Below are positions 3,339 to 14,617 of a stretch of DNA of 45,983 nucleotides, piece by piece. The notes beneath the pieces are model-generated. The model did no database searches, was not told the origin of the DNA, and saw only the letters and a list, made by a program, of their open reading frames with translations. Source of the DNA: a virus; the IMG/VR virus record IMGVR_UViG_3300046690_000081, positions 1-45,983 of that record, one strand, 5' to 3'. Numbering within the stretch: the stretch's first letter is position 1; each line of letters starts with the position of its first letter. The translations under genes and the position numbers were made by a program.

Positions 3339-4436
3339 TCAGGCGGATTTCGGGATCGTCAACCGAACGTGGCTGACCGGAATATCGAGCTTTTTGAAGT
3401 AAATGTGCGTCGTAGCTTCTCGGGTGTGCCCTGCTGCCACCATCAATTCTTTCGTCTCGTAGCCGGCGCGCTTCGCGTCCGTTAGCGCCTTTGCTCGGAT
3501 GTCCTTGATGGTGTATTTCTTGGCCGCCAGTCCCGCTTTGCCTAACGCGCGCGTCCACGCGGCGAGAAGCGCTTCGGGTTTGTACGGCTCGAATTTGCGG
3601 TTGTGAATCACATGCGCGTCGCCGATGCGCGGCTGCTGGTCTATCTCGCGGATGCGTGCGAGCACGGCGTCGATTTCCGGCGTGATGGCGAAGTCGACGG
3701 TGACTCCGCTGCTGTCGGCGGTCTTGCTGGGTAGGAAGTGGATCACTCCCGCCGCGCGGTCAATCTGTGACCACTTCAGCATGCGAATTTCCGTCGAGCG
3801 CTGTGCAGTCAGGTAGCAGAGGTCGACAAAGCACTGCATCATCCGGCCATTGCGGGCGAAGGTCCCTTCCTTCGCTCTCGTGTTGCTCTTTTGCTCGAAG
3901 TGCGTCAACTGCTTGCGGATCGCCGCGAAGTGGTCATCCGTGATGTACACGCCGCGCCGCGGCGGGGTCTTGATCTTGATGTCGCGCACTGGATTGGTTT
4001 TCGTGTGCCGCTTTTTCACGCACCAGAAGAAGAACCCTGACAGAAACGACTTGACGTGGTTCTGCATGGTCAGCTTCTCATCCCAGAAGCCGAGCACGTC
4101 GCTGATGTCACCCGGCTCGATGTCTGCGACGTTCGCGTCGCGCAACGCGTTGCGCGCGTAGCGGCCGGTGCGCGCCCACGATTTTTGCGACTTCAGCGTC
4201 GGGCCCTTTTCCTCGATATAGCGATCGATCAGCGGGCCCGCGTCGCCGGTACCAGGCGGTGCCTCGTACTTGCGGCGCTCGACGACGAGCCGCGCCAGCA
4301 TTGCGGTTTCGCCTTCGGCAATCTTGCAAAGACGGACCCATTTGTTTGTGCGGGGAACGACCCAATACCAGCTCGCGCCGTTGGCATAGACGCGAGCAGG
4401 GAGGTTCGTCGGGCGTTGGCGGCGGCGTGCATTCAT
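3339..4436 (-). CDS. int: Tyrosine-family site-specific integrase
   Basis: 365 residues with an N-terminal arm/core-binding part and a C-terminal catalytic domain. Catalytic residues by motif: Arg213 (AQRSTEIR), Lys238, Arg314 in KDIRAKA, His337 in AAGHTRE, and nucleophile Tyr346 (HIYFKK). The usual His of HxxR is Lys311. The start at 4436 overlaps the stop of the DUF4224 gene (ATGA); the open frame extends upstream but that part looks non-coding. It would insert the phage at attP just downstream. It lies last in the left early operon, so its expression depends on PL readthrough unless it has its own promoter. Confidence 0.93.
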   Translation of the reverse strand: MNARRRQRPTNLPARVYANGASWYWVVPRTNKWVRLCKIAEGETAMLARLVVERRKYEAPPGTGDAGPLIDRYIEEKGPTLKSQKSWARTGRYARNALRDANVADIEPGDISDVLGFWDEKLTMQNHVKSFLSGFFFWCVKKRHTKTNPVRDIKIKTPPRRGVYITDDHFAAIRKQLTHFEQKSNTRAKEGTFARNGRMMQCFVDLCYLTAQRSTEIRMLKWSQIDRAAGVIHFLPSKTADSSGVTVDFAITPEIDAVLARIREIDQQPRIGDAHVIHNRKFEPYKPEALLAAWTRALGKAGLAAKKYTIKDIRAKALTDAKRAGYETKELMVAAGHTREATTHIYFKKLDIPVSHVRLTIPKSA

Positions 4437-9601: not shown

Positions 9602-10282
9602 TCAAGCTGCTCGGCGGTTCAGTTCGGCGATCATCTGCTCGACCTCGGCGTTGAACTGGAGGAGGCCGGGCAGGAGGATCTGGTTGATGTAGGTGTCATC
9701 GCGCGGGATGCGCTGGACGTAGAGGCGAAGCTTTTCGCACTGGCGCGGGTCGTATGAGACGAAGTCCCACCAGGCGCGGCCGGTGACGAGCATTCCGCCT
9801 TGGATCTGCGGGATGTGATCGGGCGGCACGCCGTCGAGCCACGTGCCGATGTGCACGCCTTCATCCATCGGGCATTTCATTTCGCCTCCGCCGTCGTTGT
9901 CGACGAGGAAGTCAGGCGACGCGCCGATGAAGGGATAGTCGGGGTGGCAAACGAACTGCGCTTCGACGGCGATGTTCCCGGTGTGCAGCTCGTACGCCTC
10001 GCGGGCGAACTGCTCGACCTCGGTTCCGTATCGCAGCGCCTGCCCGCTGATCTCGTGGCGGGGTATGCCCGCCATTCGCTCGAACGCGACCTCGCGCTTG
10101 TACTTCTCGCGCGGCGCCAGCGACTCGGCGATCTTCGGCTGTCCCTTGCGCGGCCCGGACTTGTAGACCTCGCCGGGCTCGACCTTCGACATCGCGATGG
10201 CGTCGATGAAGCGCGACGCTGTCAGCTTGCCGGCGCGCGCCTCGCGCCACTCGGTGCTGCGTTGCTCGATCACGTCACTCAT
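9602..10282 (-). CDS. YqaJ-family viral exonuclease
   Basis: 226 residues. The nuclease core is visible as GASPDFLVDNDGGGEMKCPM: Asp124, Glu134 and Lys136 are the PD-(D/E)XK triad of lambda Exo/YqaJ proteins, followed by QIQGGMLVTGRAWWDFVSYD. It would resect double-stranded ends 5'-3' for the RecT annealase encoded directly upstream. The start overlaps the RecT stop; the longer open frame to 10522 is a shadow of recT. Confidence 0.92.
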   Translation of the reverse strand: MSDVIEQRSTEWREARAGKLTASRFIDAIAMSKVEPGEVYKSGPRKGQPKIAESLAPREKYKREVAFERMAGIPRHEISGQALRYGTEVEQFAREAYELHTGNIAVEAQFVCHPDYPFIGASPDFLVDNDGGGEMKCPMDEGVHIGTWLDGVPPDHIPQIQGGMLVTGRAWWDFVSYDPRQCEKLRLYVQRIPRDDTYINQILLPGLLQFNAEVEQMIAELNRRAA

Positions 10283-11087
10283 CATCTGCTCCCGGCTCGC
10301 GGCTCGTTTCCATCGGCTCGACCGGCGTCGCGTTCGCGAGGTTGCCGATGCGGTCACGCTCGCCCAGACCAATCGCGGCGCGGTCTTCACGCGGCAGCTT
10401 CGACCACTCTTCCTTGAAGGGGGTGAAGCCGAACTGCTTGGCGACCTCCTCGAGCTGCTTGATGATCTTCTCGTGCCGCTCGGTGCGCTCCGGACGCGCG
10501 GACTGTTGCGCGGCTTGGGCAATCTGCGTCGGCGTCTGCTTGGCGCGCGGTGTGATGTCTTTCTCGATGGACTCGTGGTCGCTGATTTCCTCGGCGATCG
10601 GCATGCCCTTGAGCACGTCCGGAAAGACGTCGCGCAGAGCGAATGCGCGGGCGCGCATCTGCTTCATGCGGTTCGGGTATTGCGCCCACGGCCCTTGCTT
10701 TCCGATCAGTCCGGCCTGCTTGGCGTCCGCTTCGCTGAACGTTCGGATCTGCTCTTCCTCGCCGCGGCGCTTCACGCGACAGGTTGCGGTTCCGTTCTCG
10801 AACGTCTCGTAGACGTATTCGCAGAGCGACGAGGCGCGCACCAGCGCGAGCACCGCGTCACCCCAGAGCGACGGCCGACCGTTGATGACGGCGATGTTCT
10901 GCATGGCTTGCATCGGCTTCAGGCCGAGCTCCATGCCCCACTGGATGGCGACGAGGATGTTGCCGGGCTTCTGCTGGAAGTCTTTCGGCACGATGCTAGA
11001 GTCGGCGAGGTAGTCGGCGAACTTCAGCGCTTCGTCGAGCGACTTGGGCGACAGGTCGAAAGACTGCGCCGGGATCAGGTCAGACAT
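10275..11087 (-). CDS. recT: RecT-family single-strand annealing protein
   Basis: 270 residues. Residues about 20-170 match the RecT pattern: ALKFADYLADSSIVPKDFQQ, MQNIAVINGRPSLWGDAVLA, and WAQYPNRMKQMRARAFALRD. The C-terminal 80 residues are charged and linker-like. AGGAG precedes the ATG. With the YqaJ exonuclease it forms a RecET-type recombination pair used in phage replication and repair. No SSB gene was found nearby. Confidence 0.93.
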   Translation of the reverse strand: MSDLIPAQSFDLSPKSLDEALKFADYLADSSIVPKDFQQKPGNILVAIQWGMELGLKPMQAMQNIAVINGRPSLWGDAVLALVRASSLCEYVYETFENGTATCRVKRRGEEEQIRTFSEADAKQAGLIGKQGPWAQYPNRMKQMRARAFALRDVFPDVLKGMPIAEEISDHESIEKDITPRAKQTPTQIAQAAQQSARPERTERHEKIIKQLEEVAKQFGFTPFKEEWSKLPREDRAAIGLGERDRIGNLANATPVEPMETSREPGADDE

Positions 11088-11126: not shown

Positions 11127-12467
11127 TTATGCAGGGACTGCTTCGAGTTGCTCGAACGGGGCTTCAAGTTCGGCAAGAATTTCTTTCGCTTCGGCGATGC
11201 GTGCGCCGTGCGAATAAGCGCCTAGAGTGTGTTCAGCGTTCTTAGGCTCGGTGATCGTTTCAACGAACAGCGCGAGCAATGCACGCATGCGAGGCGCAGC
11301 GGCGATCAGACGGGCATCGGCGGGGCGCCACACGCTTTCGCATATCATGTGACCGCCGTAGAACTTGAACTCGTCGTGGCCGGTTCCAACAGCGCCAGCG
11401 ATCGGTTCCGTCGTGACGACGCATCGCGAATCACGTCCAACCGACCACGTTCCGTCGGTCGGGATCGGTGCATTGCGTGCGGCGCGGTTCTCAGCGAGCT
11501 CGAGTTCGCGCTGCTCGCGCTCCAAACGTTCGGCCAACTCGGCCGCTTCGCGCAGTTCTTTCGCGCGTGCTTCCTCTTCGGCGCGGCGCTTCGCCGATGC
11601 TTCCTCTTCCTGTCGCCGACGCTCTGCCGCGATCTCTGCCTGCTGCCGCGCAATTTCGTCGCGCTGCGCCTGCATCTCGGCTTCGTGCGCCTCGCGCTCG
11701 GCGCGAAGCTTTGCTTCGGCTGCCTGCCGTTCGGTGCGCAGTCGCGATTCCTCTGCCTCACGCTCGGCGCGCGCCTTGCGCTCCTGCTCGGCGCGCTCGG
11801 CTGCTGCCTGGCGCTCGCGTTCTTCCTGCTCAGCGCGCAGTCGGGCGAGTTCAGCGCGTTCCTCTTCAAGACGCTTGGCTTCAGCCTCCTTCGCGACCGC
11901 GTCGGCGTGCCGCTCACGCAGCCACTTGACCGTCTGGTATTGCTTAGCCTGCGCCTCGCCGGTGAACTCGGCGAACTCGTCGATGGAGATCGCCATCTTG
12001 TCGAGGCTGTCGGCGTGCGCGGCGATTTCTGGTGACGACTTTGAAGAGACCGAGACAGCGTCGAGCATGAAGGCTTCGATCTTCAGCTTGATGCCGGCGA
12101 CTCGGTTCGCTTCGGCCTCGGCCTTCGCGCGCTTTTCGATCTCGCGCGCTTCGTCCCACACATCGCGAAGACCTTGCAACCGGGACTCTTCCGCCTCCGT
12201 GATCGCAACGAGCCGCTTCTGCTCTTCGATCACCGCCTTGCTGAACGCCGTCGCATCCTCGCGCGCCGTCTTGCCCGCCTTCTCGATCTCGACGCGGGCA
12301 TTCTTCAGAACCATGTACGCCGAATGGCACTGCGTGCGTGCGTCCGCGTTCTTGATCTCGACGATTGATGCCGACTGCGTGACCAGCTCGCGCAGCTTCT
12401 TCTCGTGCTCCGGCGTGCCAAGCGCGATCGCAGCGCGCTCGACAACCGTCAGTTGATTACCTTCCAT
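11127..12467 (-). CDS. Long coiled-coil protein with C-terminal LIAAAP domain
   Basis: 446 residues. Residues 1-210 are helical (TPEHEKKLRELVTQSASIVE onward); about 210-345 is a continuous Glu/Arg/Ala-rich coiled coil; 350-446 is a separate domain (GTWSVGRDSRCVVTTEPIAG, ADARLIAAAPRMRALLALF) related to the NARLIAAAP family seen at 7397-7705. Placed immediately before recT, it is probably a recombination accessory factor, by position only. A hairpin (GCCCCG / CGGGGC) separates it from recT. Confidence 0.7.
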   Translation of the reverse strand: MEGNQLTVVERAAIALGTPEHEKKLRELVTQSASIVEIKNADARTQCHSAYMVLKNARVEIEKAGKTAREDATAFSKAVIEEQKRLVAITEAEESRLQGLRDVWDEAREIEKRAKAEAEANRVAGIKLKIEAFMLDAVSVSSKSSPEIAAHADSLDKMAISIDEFAEFTGEAQAKQYQTVKWLRERHADAVAKEAEAKRLEEERAELARLRAEQEERERQAAAERAEQERKARAEREAEESRLRTERQAAEAKLRAEREAHEAEMQAQRDEIARQQAEIAAERRRQEEEASAKRRAEEEARAKELREAAELAERLEREQRELELAENRAARNAPIPTDGTWSVGRDSRCVVTTEPIAGAVGTGHDEFKFYGGHMICESVWRPADARLIAAAPRMRALLALFVETITEPKNAEHTLGAYSHGARIAEAKEILAELEAPFEQLEAVPA

Positions 12468-12529: not shown

Positions 12530-12553
12530 AAAAATAAGCGCTCCTAGAGCGCT
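12530..12553 (-). terminator. Intra-operon terminator in the left early operon
   Basis: AGCGCTC-CTA-GAGCGCT, a seven-pair stem, followed on the minus strand by TATTTTTC. It lies between the two promoter-proximal small genes and the recombination genes, so readthrough would be needed to express everything downstream. Confidence 0.7.
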
Positions 12554-12960: not shown

Positions 12961-13101
12961 TCAACAGCCTCCGCGCTCGTCGGCCACGCCTTGAGCGATC
13001 AAGTTCGATGCAACCTCACGCAGCAGATGTTCGATCAACGCCCCTGCGCCACCTTGAGCGAGCCTCACCAGCTCGACCAGATCCTTCGCCAATGTGGACA
13101 T
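12961..13101 (-). CDS. First gene of the left early operon (46 aa)
   Basis: MSTLAKDLVELVRLAQGGAG, a leucine-rich amphipathic helix, then LIEHLLREVASNLIAQGVAD. AGGAG lies seven bases before this ATG. The frame stays open upstream to 13275 through a structured leader that reads GFRKAPTDCGEVTVRVLS, so a longer 104-residue product is possible. Function unknown. Confidence 0.6.
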   Translation of the reverse strand: MSTLAKDLVELVRLAQGGAGALIEHLLREVASNLIAQGVADERGGC

Positions 13102-13136
13102 GCCACGCTCCTGTTTTAGCGGTGCGTCGTTGTCAC

Positions 13137-13186
13137 GGCGCACTGATAAAACCCTGACTGTTACCTCGCCACAGTCAGTGGGCGCC
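13137..13186 (-). promoter_or_regulatory. Structured leader upstream of the first left early gene
   Basis: CTGACTGT (13154-13161) pairs with ACAGTCAG (13171-13178); on the minus strand the loop displays GGCGAGGTA, a ribosome-site-like sequence. A competing outer stem pairs 13137-13146 with 13175-13186 (GGCG/CGCC plus CACTGA/TCAGTG). The two stems share bases, so they could be alternatives. The encoded leader peptide reminds me of leaders before Icd/Ash genes controlled by C4 antisense RNA; that link is from memory and unverified. Confidence 0.45.
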
Positions 13187-13285
13187 TTTCGGAAGCCGCT
13201 CATCAGGCAGCCATTTCCGGTACTTTTACGTTCTGCCGTCCGGGCCATGGGCAGGGCGATTACACGCCTATTCATCAGTCAGCAG

Positions 13286-13332
13286 GTTTAAAGAGCGTCG
13301 CTACTTGTAGCGTTGCGCTGTTCGTTCAGCGC
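13286..13332 (-). promoter_or_regulatory. Candidate antitermination (nut/put-like) site in the PL leader
   Basis: Read on the minus strand just after the PL start: hairpin GCGCTG-AACGAA-CAGCGC (13332-13315), then hairpin CGCTA-CAAG-TAGCG (13312-13299), then CGCTCTTTAAAC (13297-13286), which closely matches bacterial boxA. Hairpins plus boxA directly behind an early promoter, with a terminator inside the operon downstream, fit processive antitermination. Confidence 0.6.
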
Positions 13333-13340
13333 ATGAACGA

Positions 13341-13382
13341 ATATTAGACCGCTAATAGGAACACGTCAATAGCAAACTAATA
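13341..13382 (-). promoter_or_regulatory. Left early promoter PL with two operators
   Basis: Minus-strand -35 TTGACG (13369-13364), 17-base spacer, -10 TAATAT (13346-13341). Operator OL1 TATTAG-N4-CTAATA at 13342-13357 overlaps the -10; OL2 CAATAG-N4-CTAATA at 13367-13382 overlaps the -35 edge. The promoter is nearly the same string as PR at 14379, including the CTATTGAC and CTATTAGC blocks. Confidence 0.8.
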
Positions 13383-13678: not shown

Positions 13679-14341
13679 TCAGATGCGTTCGCTCTGTTTG
13701 TGGACGATCCGGCCTAGAACGAACGTGTTGTCGTCGCACCGCTTTCGCGGATACCGCCGCGCGTCCAGGTTGTCGGAAGACAACCACCAGTCTCCGGAAT
13801 CGCGCACCAATCGCTTTATGACGAGCTCACCGTCGTAGTTGACCGCAAAGACGTCACCGTCTGTCGGCTCTTTGTCTGCGGTGTTCACGACGACGGTGTC
13901 GCTGTCGGTGAGAGACGGTTCCATGCTGGCGCCGCGCACTTTGATCGCGTACAGCTCATCCGGGCTGTAACCGCGAGCATCGAACCACGCCTTCTGGAAG
14001 AAAAGGGGCGCTCCGTCACCATCGTCGAGGAAATCGACGGCGAAGCCTGCTACACCAGCGCTAATTCTGAACACGACTTTTCTGATTGCGATGAACTCGT
14101 CCGATTCGTCCGGGACGATTGCCACCTTCTTCGGGCGCTCGATCGGGCCGGTTCCTTTCTCGAGCCAATCAACGGAGCAGTCTAGGGCGCGCGCAATGGC
14201 GACTAGGTGTTTCGTCTTCTGATTGGGGTTTTTCTCAAGTTGGCTGATCGTACCTTGCGATACGCCGGCTTTCATTGCGAGATCTGACTGGGAAAGTCCG
14301 GCCTTTTCCCTTAATTGACGGATTCGGTCACCTATGCTCAT
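13679..14341 (-). CDS. cI: CI-type prophage repressor (HTH plus S24 peptidase)
   Basis: 220 residues. Residues 1-60 are an HTH_XRE domain (GLSQSDLAMKAGVSQGTISQ). The C-terminal half is a LexA/CI S24 domain with Ser139 (GASMEPSL) and Lys176 (LVIKRL). Ala-Gly bonds lie at 95-96 and 98-99 (ISAGVAGF); A98-G99 is 40 residues before Ser139, close to the spacing in CI, so RecA-stimulated self-cleavage is expected. Start MSIGDRI is eight bases after a TAATAT -10, which would give a near-leaderless message; ATG at 14353 is an alternative. It binds operators at PL and PR to hold lysogeny. Confidence 0.92.
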   Translation of the reverse strand: MSIGDRIRQLREKAGLSQSDLAMKAGVSQGTISQLEKNPNQKTKHLVAIARALDCSVDWLEKGTGPIERPKKVAIVPDESDEFIAIRKVVFRISAGVAGFAVDFLDDGDGAPLFFQKAWFDARGYSPDELYAIKVRGASMEPSLTDSDTVVVNTADKEPTDGDVFAVNYDGELVIKRLVRDSGDWWLSSDNLDARRYPRKRCDDNTFVLGRIVHKQSERI

Positions 14342-14351
14342 GGCGCGAATC

Positions 14352-14406
14352 ATATTAGTTTTCTCAAGTAGATAGCTATTGACACCTTCTATTAGCGTGC
14401 TAATAT
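14352..14406. promoter_or_regulatory. PR / PRM switch region with operators
   Basis: PR (+): TTGACA (14379-14384), 16-base spacer, TAATAT (14401-14406). OR1 TATTAG-CGTG-CTAATA (14390-14405) covers its -10. OR2, TATTAG-TTTT-CTCAAG (14353-14368), is a weaker match and overlaps a minus-strand TAATAT (14357-14352) that may be the PRM -10. A third weak site is at 14366-14381. PR transcription should begin at about 14413, right at the Cro-like ATG. Confidence 0.75.
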
Positions 14407-14413
14407 GGCACTC

Positions 14414-14617
14414 ATGAACTGGAGCCAACTCATCCGCGACTGCCTCGACGCAGGCCTGACCCAAACCGAGATCGCCGTGAACATCGGCGCTTCTCAGGCT
14501 TCCGTCAACCACGTTCTGAGGCAAACCAGACAAAAGACCTTCGGGTACGAGAAGGGGCGGAAGCTCGTCGCCTTGCACCGTCGCCTGATGCGAGATCGGG
14601 CCAGGGTCGCCGCCTGA
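14414..14617 (+). CDS. cro: Cro-like helix-turn-helix regulator
   Basis: 67 residues. LTQTEIAVNIGASQASVNHV is a clear helix-turn-helix. It is the first gene behind PR and divergent from the repressor. The PR -10 ends eight bases before this ATG, so the mRNA is likely leaderless; an in-frame ATG at 14405 lies inside the -10 and cannot be used from PR. Likely competes with CI for the same operators. Confidence 0.75.
   Translation: MNWSQLIRDCLDAGLTQTEIAVNIGASQASVNHVLRQTRQKTFGYEKGRKLVALHRRLMRDRARVAA

Follow-up and report, generated by a model that had tools for sequence, protein, structure and literature searches.

Early-gene antitermination is understood in enteric phages, where it operates through N and nut or through put RNA. 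In the lambda nut site, the boxB hairpin, which has a GNRA-like loop, lies 3' of boxA and is bound by N, a short, arginine-rich protein; the put RNA of phage HK022 acts without a phage protein, through the zinc-binding domain of the RNA polymerase beta' subunit. In temperate phages of beta-proteobacteria, early-gene antitermination is, to our knowledge, largely undescribed. The put RNA is about 70 nt long, consists of two stems with a triplex, has no reported boxA and is present in two copies per phage (PMC9378689).

We analyzed a DNA stretch of 45,983 nt, the IMG/VR virus record IMGVR_UViG_3300046690_000081 (hereafter, the window). As in lambda, an S24-type repressor, PL with a leader element and an early left operon follow one another; the operon runs from a 47-aa ORF through a 123-aa ORF, a terminator, a 446-aa protein and RecT to a YqaJ/RecE-type exonuclease. 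The PL context proposed in an earlier, sequence-only reading is borne out by a promoter that contains an operator-like dyad repeated at PR, and, in line with the same reading, no recognizable N gene was found, none of the early genes of the window being annotated as N. The setting comprises:

13341-13369, minus strand: PL-type promoter TTGACG-17-TAATAT (consensus scan)
13342-13357, no strand assigned: operator-like dyad TATTAG-N4-CTAATA inside PL (read from the sequence)
14390-14405, no strand assigned: matching operator-like dyad TATTAG-N4-CTAATA at the divergent PR (read from the sequence)
13679-14341, minus strand: CI-type repressor (HTH and peptidase S24), between PL and PR
12961-13104, minus strand: first ORF after the element, 47 aa, phrog_20909, not N-like
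12530-12553, minus strand: intrinsic terminator AGCGCTC-TAG-GAGCGCTTATTTTT inside the PL operon
10275-11087, minus strand: RecT-like recombination gene, distal PL operon
9602-10435, minus strand: YqaJ/RecE-like exonuclease, distal PL operon

The terminator is located about 743-766 nt 3' of the boxA start (dG -20.5 for the surrounding 45 nt). On the PR side, the -10 box TAATAT (14401-14406, within 14379-14414 of the window, plus strand) overlaps the first possible start of a cro-like ORF (ATG at 14405; the next ATG is at 14414), so that the cro transcript may be nearly leaderless. IMG/VR record 3300047673_000079 is a near-identical relative of the window, with 798 of 800 bases matching over the element region.

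A distant blastn search against annotated phages produced a single record, that of Burkholderia phage Bcep176, in which the similarity starts at boxA and continues on its 3' side rather than its 5' side (76% alignment, ACGCTCTTTAA.CCTGCTG...GATGAATAGG...GTAAAAG...GGAAATGG...GGTAAC). The conserved element thus delineated consists of boxA and about 135 nt downstream (13288 to 13154), a part that the sequence-only reading did not include. In the 3' direction from boxA, the order is about 10 nt, GATGAATAG, the hairpin P1, the 5' strand of stem S1, loop L1, the 5' strand of stem S2, the 3' strand of S1, AAGYAAAA, the 3' strand of S2 and AAA. Together, S1 and S2 form an H-type pseudoknot (PK1), which in some copies is followed by a second one (PK2). 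The parts in the window are:

13288-13296, minus strand: boxA GCTCTTTAA, the same sequence as a host rrn boxA
13268-13276, minus strand: conserved motif GATGAATAG (GATRAAYAG in relatives)
13255-13268, minus strand: P1 hairpin GGCG/CGCC, the first G of which (13268) is the last base of GATGAATAG
13250-13254, minus strand: PK1, 5' strand of S1, CTGCC
13238-13243, minus strand: PK1, 5' strand of S2, CCGGAC
13233-13237, minus strand: PK1, 3' strand of S1, GGCAG
13224-13232, minus strand: PK1, A-rich loop L3, AACGTAAAA (AAGYAAAA-type), kept in nearly all relatives
13217-13223, minus strand: PK1, 3' strand of S2, GTaCCGG, with one bulged A
13191-13212, minus strand: possible hairpin between the pseudoknots, GCTGC/GCGGC (GCGGC/GCTGC in Bcep176), from reading of the sequence
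13154-13184, minus strand: PK2, CGCC-CA-CTGACTGT-GGCG-AGGTA-ACAGTCAG

At least 24 diverged phage and prophage copies, nearly all of Burkholderiales type, keep this architecture. Relatives with different surroundings came from pattern scans of viral and genome contigs and include prophages of Pseudothauera and Pigmentiphaga; covariance model R1 and its successor R2 yielded further copies in Burkholderiales genomes. Copies were detected with a covariance model in at least 3 of 268 genomes of the Pigmentiphaga family and, in two model searches, in at least 3 and at least 4 of 399 genomes of the order, rates that are lower bounds because these searches score few candidates per genome; a covariance-model search of 368 other genomes of the class, likewise with few candidates scored per genome, produced no copy. 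Among named phages, blastn with several different copies matched none besides Bcep176, except for short hits attributable to chance in one of the searches, and there was no match among plasmids.

The strongest evidence for the fold comes from covariation. The alignment fitted with R2 contains 25 sequences, namely, 24 loci and a weak second copy from locus L228. The structure pairs in 89.3% of the alignment cells compared with 66.8% after shuffling, and the covariation score of this alignment is 0.487, whereas shuffled versions score 0.126 and slid ones 0.098 or less. All 4 pairs of P1 change on both sides and 4 of the 5 pairs of S1 covary, with 100% of the cells paired in each, although these two stems are favored by construction because they are part of the alignment's own model and the S1 sequence was specified in some scans. 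Stem S2 lies outside the alignment model, and some copies were first recognized partly by S2 pairing; each of its 7 alignment pairs changes on both sides, and its strands differ widely among copies (CTCGCGC/GCGCGGG, CGTGGG/CCCACG, CGCCGG/CCGGCG, CACTAGC/GCTAGTG, CTGCGC/GCGCAG, CGTGAC/GTCACG). When S2 strands were swapped among copies, none of 20,000 permutations reached the copies' own pairing. Among pattern hits picked without S2, this stem (at least 4 bp) forms in 14 of the 16 that have boxA and GATRAA compared with 13 of the 122 that do not; most of the stronger hits among these 13 are relatives too, and the two exceptions among the 16, the window and locus L309, both seem to have an S2 interrupted by a bulged A. 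At one locus (L359, 995-1128, plus strand), a hairpin is inserted in L1 of PK1, with S1 and S2 (CACCTG/CAGGTG) retained.

Two other explanations of the conserved sequence were tried and rejected. ORFs do overlap the element (a 104-aa ORF from 13275 in the window, gp28 and gp29 in Bcep176), but the loops vary in length by numbers not divisible by three, the stems covary, and L068 and L228 have GATAAA and hence no ATG, all of which argues against coding. In Bcep176 (NC_007497), gp28 and gp29 are annotated ORFs of 24 and 30 aa that lie over the RNA (11549-11712) and are probably not genes. As for a hammerhead ribozyme, the window has CTGATGAG followed by a CGAAA-like string, but this is not conserved in Bcep176 and there is no Rfam match. 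A hammerhead of Bcep176 has been published and was described as located in an intergenic region (PMC3088659).

The second pseudoknot, PK2, follows the plan CGCC-loop-GGCG-(A)GGTAA-strand, in which the loop pairs with the strand after GGTA, again in an H-type fold. The pairing strands are CTGACTGT/ACAGTCAG in the window, CGATGAGT/ACTCGTCG in Bcep176, CCCACGAT/ATCGTGGG in L017 and GCGAGCAT/GTGCTCGC in L233. In 11 distinct copies anchored without reference to the pairing, the copies' own strands form 71 pairs, compared with a maximum of 67 under permutation (0 of 20,000). Because the anchor is missing from about half of the 26 copies examined, PK2 is a feature of a subset.

The boxA belongs to the pseudoknot structure. 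It is retained despite 111-204 nt inserted before GATGAA at five loci (L252, L266, L305, L296 and L226). In four of these (all except L296), the insert of 134-204 nt folds into a single very long, near-perfect stem of -74 to -104 kcal/mol; boxA stands at the base of this stem and GATGAA immediately past its opposite end, so that the two are kept side by side. The L296 insert has a similar, less regular fold. A mobile RNA element is one conceivable source of these inserts. In L223 and L242, boxA was not found in the upstream DNA searched. The exact GCTCTTTAA is found once in the 46 kb of the window. The 16S-23S spacer of Pseudothauera carries the same boxA, as GCTCTTTAACAAAG, and the prophage there reads GCTCTTTAACAA; on the strength of this identity, NusB-S10 binding is assumed in these hosts. 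In two host genomes (G007 and G008), the GCTCTTTAA 9-mer occurs 4 and 6 times, compared with 54 and 37 times for a reversed-letter control, a several-fold to tenfold deficit that resembles avoidance of the 9-mer away from boxA sites.

The element is single. A second copy near PR was found neither in the window, searched by the model with filters off, nor in the relatives, each of which has one copy over most of its length as searched; with only one copy per phage, the PR operon lacks the element. Locus L228 has a weak second copy of 17 bits (3837-3932, plus strand) roughly 400 nt beyond the first, with GATCTTTCAA, GATAAACGG and CATCC/GGATG together with CTGCC/GGCAG in pseudoknot order. Promoters of the form TTGAC/17-18/TANNNT, often with a dyad, are located 34-141 nt 5' of boxA in several relatives and 245 nt 5' of it in L007; in Bcep176, L228 and L233, there is no such promoter within 500 nt and the element sits between genes.

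On these grounds, we consider it fairly probable that the element, located where the PL transcript begins, acts in cis as an RNA-based, Nus-boxA-dependent means of processive antitermination, the antitermination itself being what we infer. The nascent PL RNA would present the rrn-type boxA, through which host NusB-S10 and then other Nus factors would be brought to RNA polymerase; P1 and one or two H-type pseudoknots would fold directly 3' of boxA, with the polymerase or the Nus factors as their expected points of contact. The pseudoknot RNA would thus fill the role that protein N and boxB have in lambda, and the polymerase so modified would pass the terminators of the early operon, such as that at 12553-12530, into the recT and exonuclease genes. 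More tentatively, and somewhat short of probable, this could be an early antiterminator of a third kind among phages, an RNA sufficient in itself that combines NusB-S10 on boxA with pseudoknots, works without a phage protein and replaces N widely in temperate phages of Burkholderiales. Three observations count against antitermination. First, intrinsic terminators are present downstream (one in the window at +759 and one in L007 at +780, while L017 has five and L331 four), but over all relatives terminator-like hairpins are not enriched on the sense strand (14 compared with 11 antisense; in a second count, 9 compared with 12, of 30). Second, there is no PR copy, unlike nutL/nutR or putL/putR. 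Third, a few relatives (L223 and L242) showed no boxA in the upstream DNA searched.

The alternative that survives best, unlikely as it is, is a nut-like site that needs an N-type protein too diverged to recognize, with the pseudoknot replacing boxB as the binding site. A boxA and a structured RNA in the PL leader are the nut arrangement, N proteins of the lambda type are short and evolve quickly, and these early operons contain several short ORFs with no assigned function. Against this, there is no protein family common to the phages with the element: none is present in more than six of 16 such phages, a count in which fast-evolving short proteins could be missed, and the most widely shared families are of repressor, recombination or endonuclease types. 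Moreover, the first ORF of the window (47 aa) has no N-like annotation, and N with boxB uses a small hairpin rather than a pseudoknot.

Slightly less likely still is a role other than in termination, whether as a riboswitch-like or translational leader or as a stable small RNA of the phage, acting by titration of Nus factors or by binding to a different target. Small riboswitches do include H-type pseudoknots with A-rich loops, and a terminator-like hairpin about 220-290 nt past boxA in L017, L331, L358 and L226 could make an attenuator. Yet the downstream genes vary among phages, and boxA is conserved and remains joined to the pseudoknot across the long insertions, none of which a metabolite switch would require. 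A leader-terminator switch was rejected given that terminator-like hairpins are no more common than on the antisense strand.

The region 5' of boxA, on which the sequence-only reading had centered, contains:

13315-13332 (13314-13333 with the T13333-A13314 pair), minus strand: upstream hairpin 1, GCGCTG-AACGAA-CAGCGC
13299-13312, minus strand: upstream hairpin 2, CGCTA-CAAG-TAGCG, followed by AC and then boxA

These two hairpins and boxA are indeed present just after the operator-controlled PL-type promoter on the minus strand and fold as claimed, in the order hairpin, AA, hairpin with the CAAG loop, boxA, which is not the lambda order. If the T13333-A13314 pair is counted, hairpin 1 has 7 bp (TGCGCTG/CAGCGCA) and the AA spacer (13314-13313) shrinks to one base. 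Over 66 nt, the hairpins are ordinary for their composition (z of -1.23, with 23 of 200 shuffles as good); the 38 nt directly before boxA in the window fold more stably than expected (z of -4.0). Across 24 copies, the corresponding 38 nt have a mean z of -1.28 compared with -0.22 for controls (p = 1.1e-4), and in relatives the stem before boxA usually ends 0-5 nt before it; it is plausible that a variable hairpin directly precedes boxA, as it does in rRNA leaders. Among the upstream hairpins of the relatives, no common sequence, number or distance was found. Hairpin 1 is seen in L007 and is absent from other relatives; in L007, a small ORF replaces hairpin 2, and boxA is kept with everything 3' of it.

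It is accordingly most improbable that the upstream pair is an HK022-put-like RNA to which boxA is an accessory. In favor of such an RNA are the adjacency of the two hairpins where the PL transcript begins, the local z in the window and the modest enrichment of a hairpin just 5' of boxA in relatives; against it, the pair has no shared sequence or spacing among relatives, one of its hairpins is lost in L007, and put itself is a two-stem, triplex-containing RNA of some 70 nt without a reported boxA (PMC9378689). The likeness to put drawn in the sequence-only reading does not hold up: relatives keep boxA and its 3' side behind otherwise unrelated leaders of 34-245 nt, and a put-like pair was rejected for lack of conservation. 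What survives of that reading is an antitermination element of an unclassified type in the PL leader, probably cis-acting, and what falls is the paired 5' hairpins as its working part. A chance boxA-like 9-mer with incidental hairpins, for which only the unremarkable 66-nt z speaks, is ruled out by all the comparative evidence, covariation included, and deserves next to no credence.

The RNA structure appears to be new. No Rfam 15 family was found at the gathering threshold or by E-value thresholds in the window or at the loci of nine relatives, and in the open-access literature we found no description of the structure and no paper linking boxA, a pseudoknot and a phage leader of this type. 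A 2010 list of 104 candidate structured RNAs, also obtained by comparative genomics and also including Burkholderiales, names no boxA motif in its text; Rfam contains no entry for its Burkholderiales-1 candidate, which therefore falls outside the Rfam comparison (PMC2864571). Thus, a well-supported structure absent from Rfam sits exactly where early antitermination control should act. If our preferred reading, antitermination by boxA and the pseudoknot RNA, is correct, boxA-bound host factors and a pseudoknot can replace a phage protein, which would open a new way into the modification of RNA polymerase by nascent RNA and would offer a marker by which early promoters could be found in many prophages. 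Infection transcriptomics have been published for Bcep176, one of the carriers of the element (PMC12584637).

Phage early antitermination is a known kind of regulation, and it is the underlying RNA structure that appears to be new. With lambda nut/N, the locus shares a boxA in the untranslated PL leader, adjacent structured RNA, terminators and recombination genes downstream and the cI/PL/PR layout; it differs in having pseudoknots in place of the small boxB hairpin, no N gene found, a single copy and the rrn-type boxA GCTCTTTAA. No boxB-type hairpin with a conserved purine-rich pentaloop was found 3' of boxA, where the P1 loops are variable and a pseudoknot follows. Like the boxB-boxA-boxC antiterminator of rrn operons, it has the boxA of the host 16S-23S spacer, often with a variable hairpin directly 5' of it; unlike that antiterminator, it has GATGAATAG, P1 and pseudoknots after boxA and belongs to a phage early operon, with no boxC-like GTGTGGGC seen and no rRNA detected in the window by Rfam. 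With HK022 put, it has in common that the PL transcript begins with a folded RNA, probably cis-acting, no phage protein having been found here. In function, put would be the nearest system, from which the element differs in its conserved boxA, its one or two pseudoknots, its single copy and its unrelated sequence.
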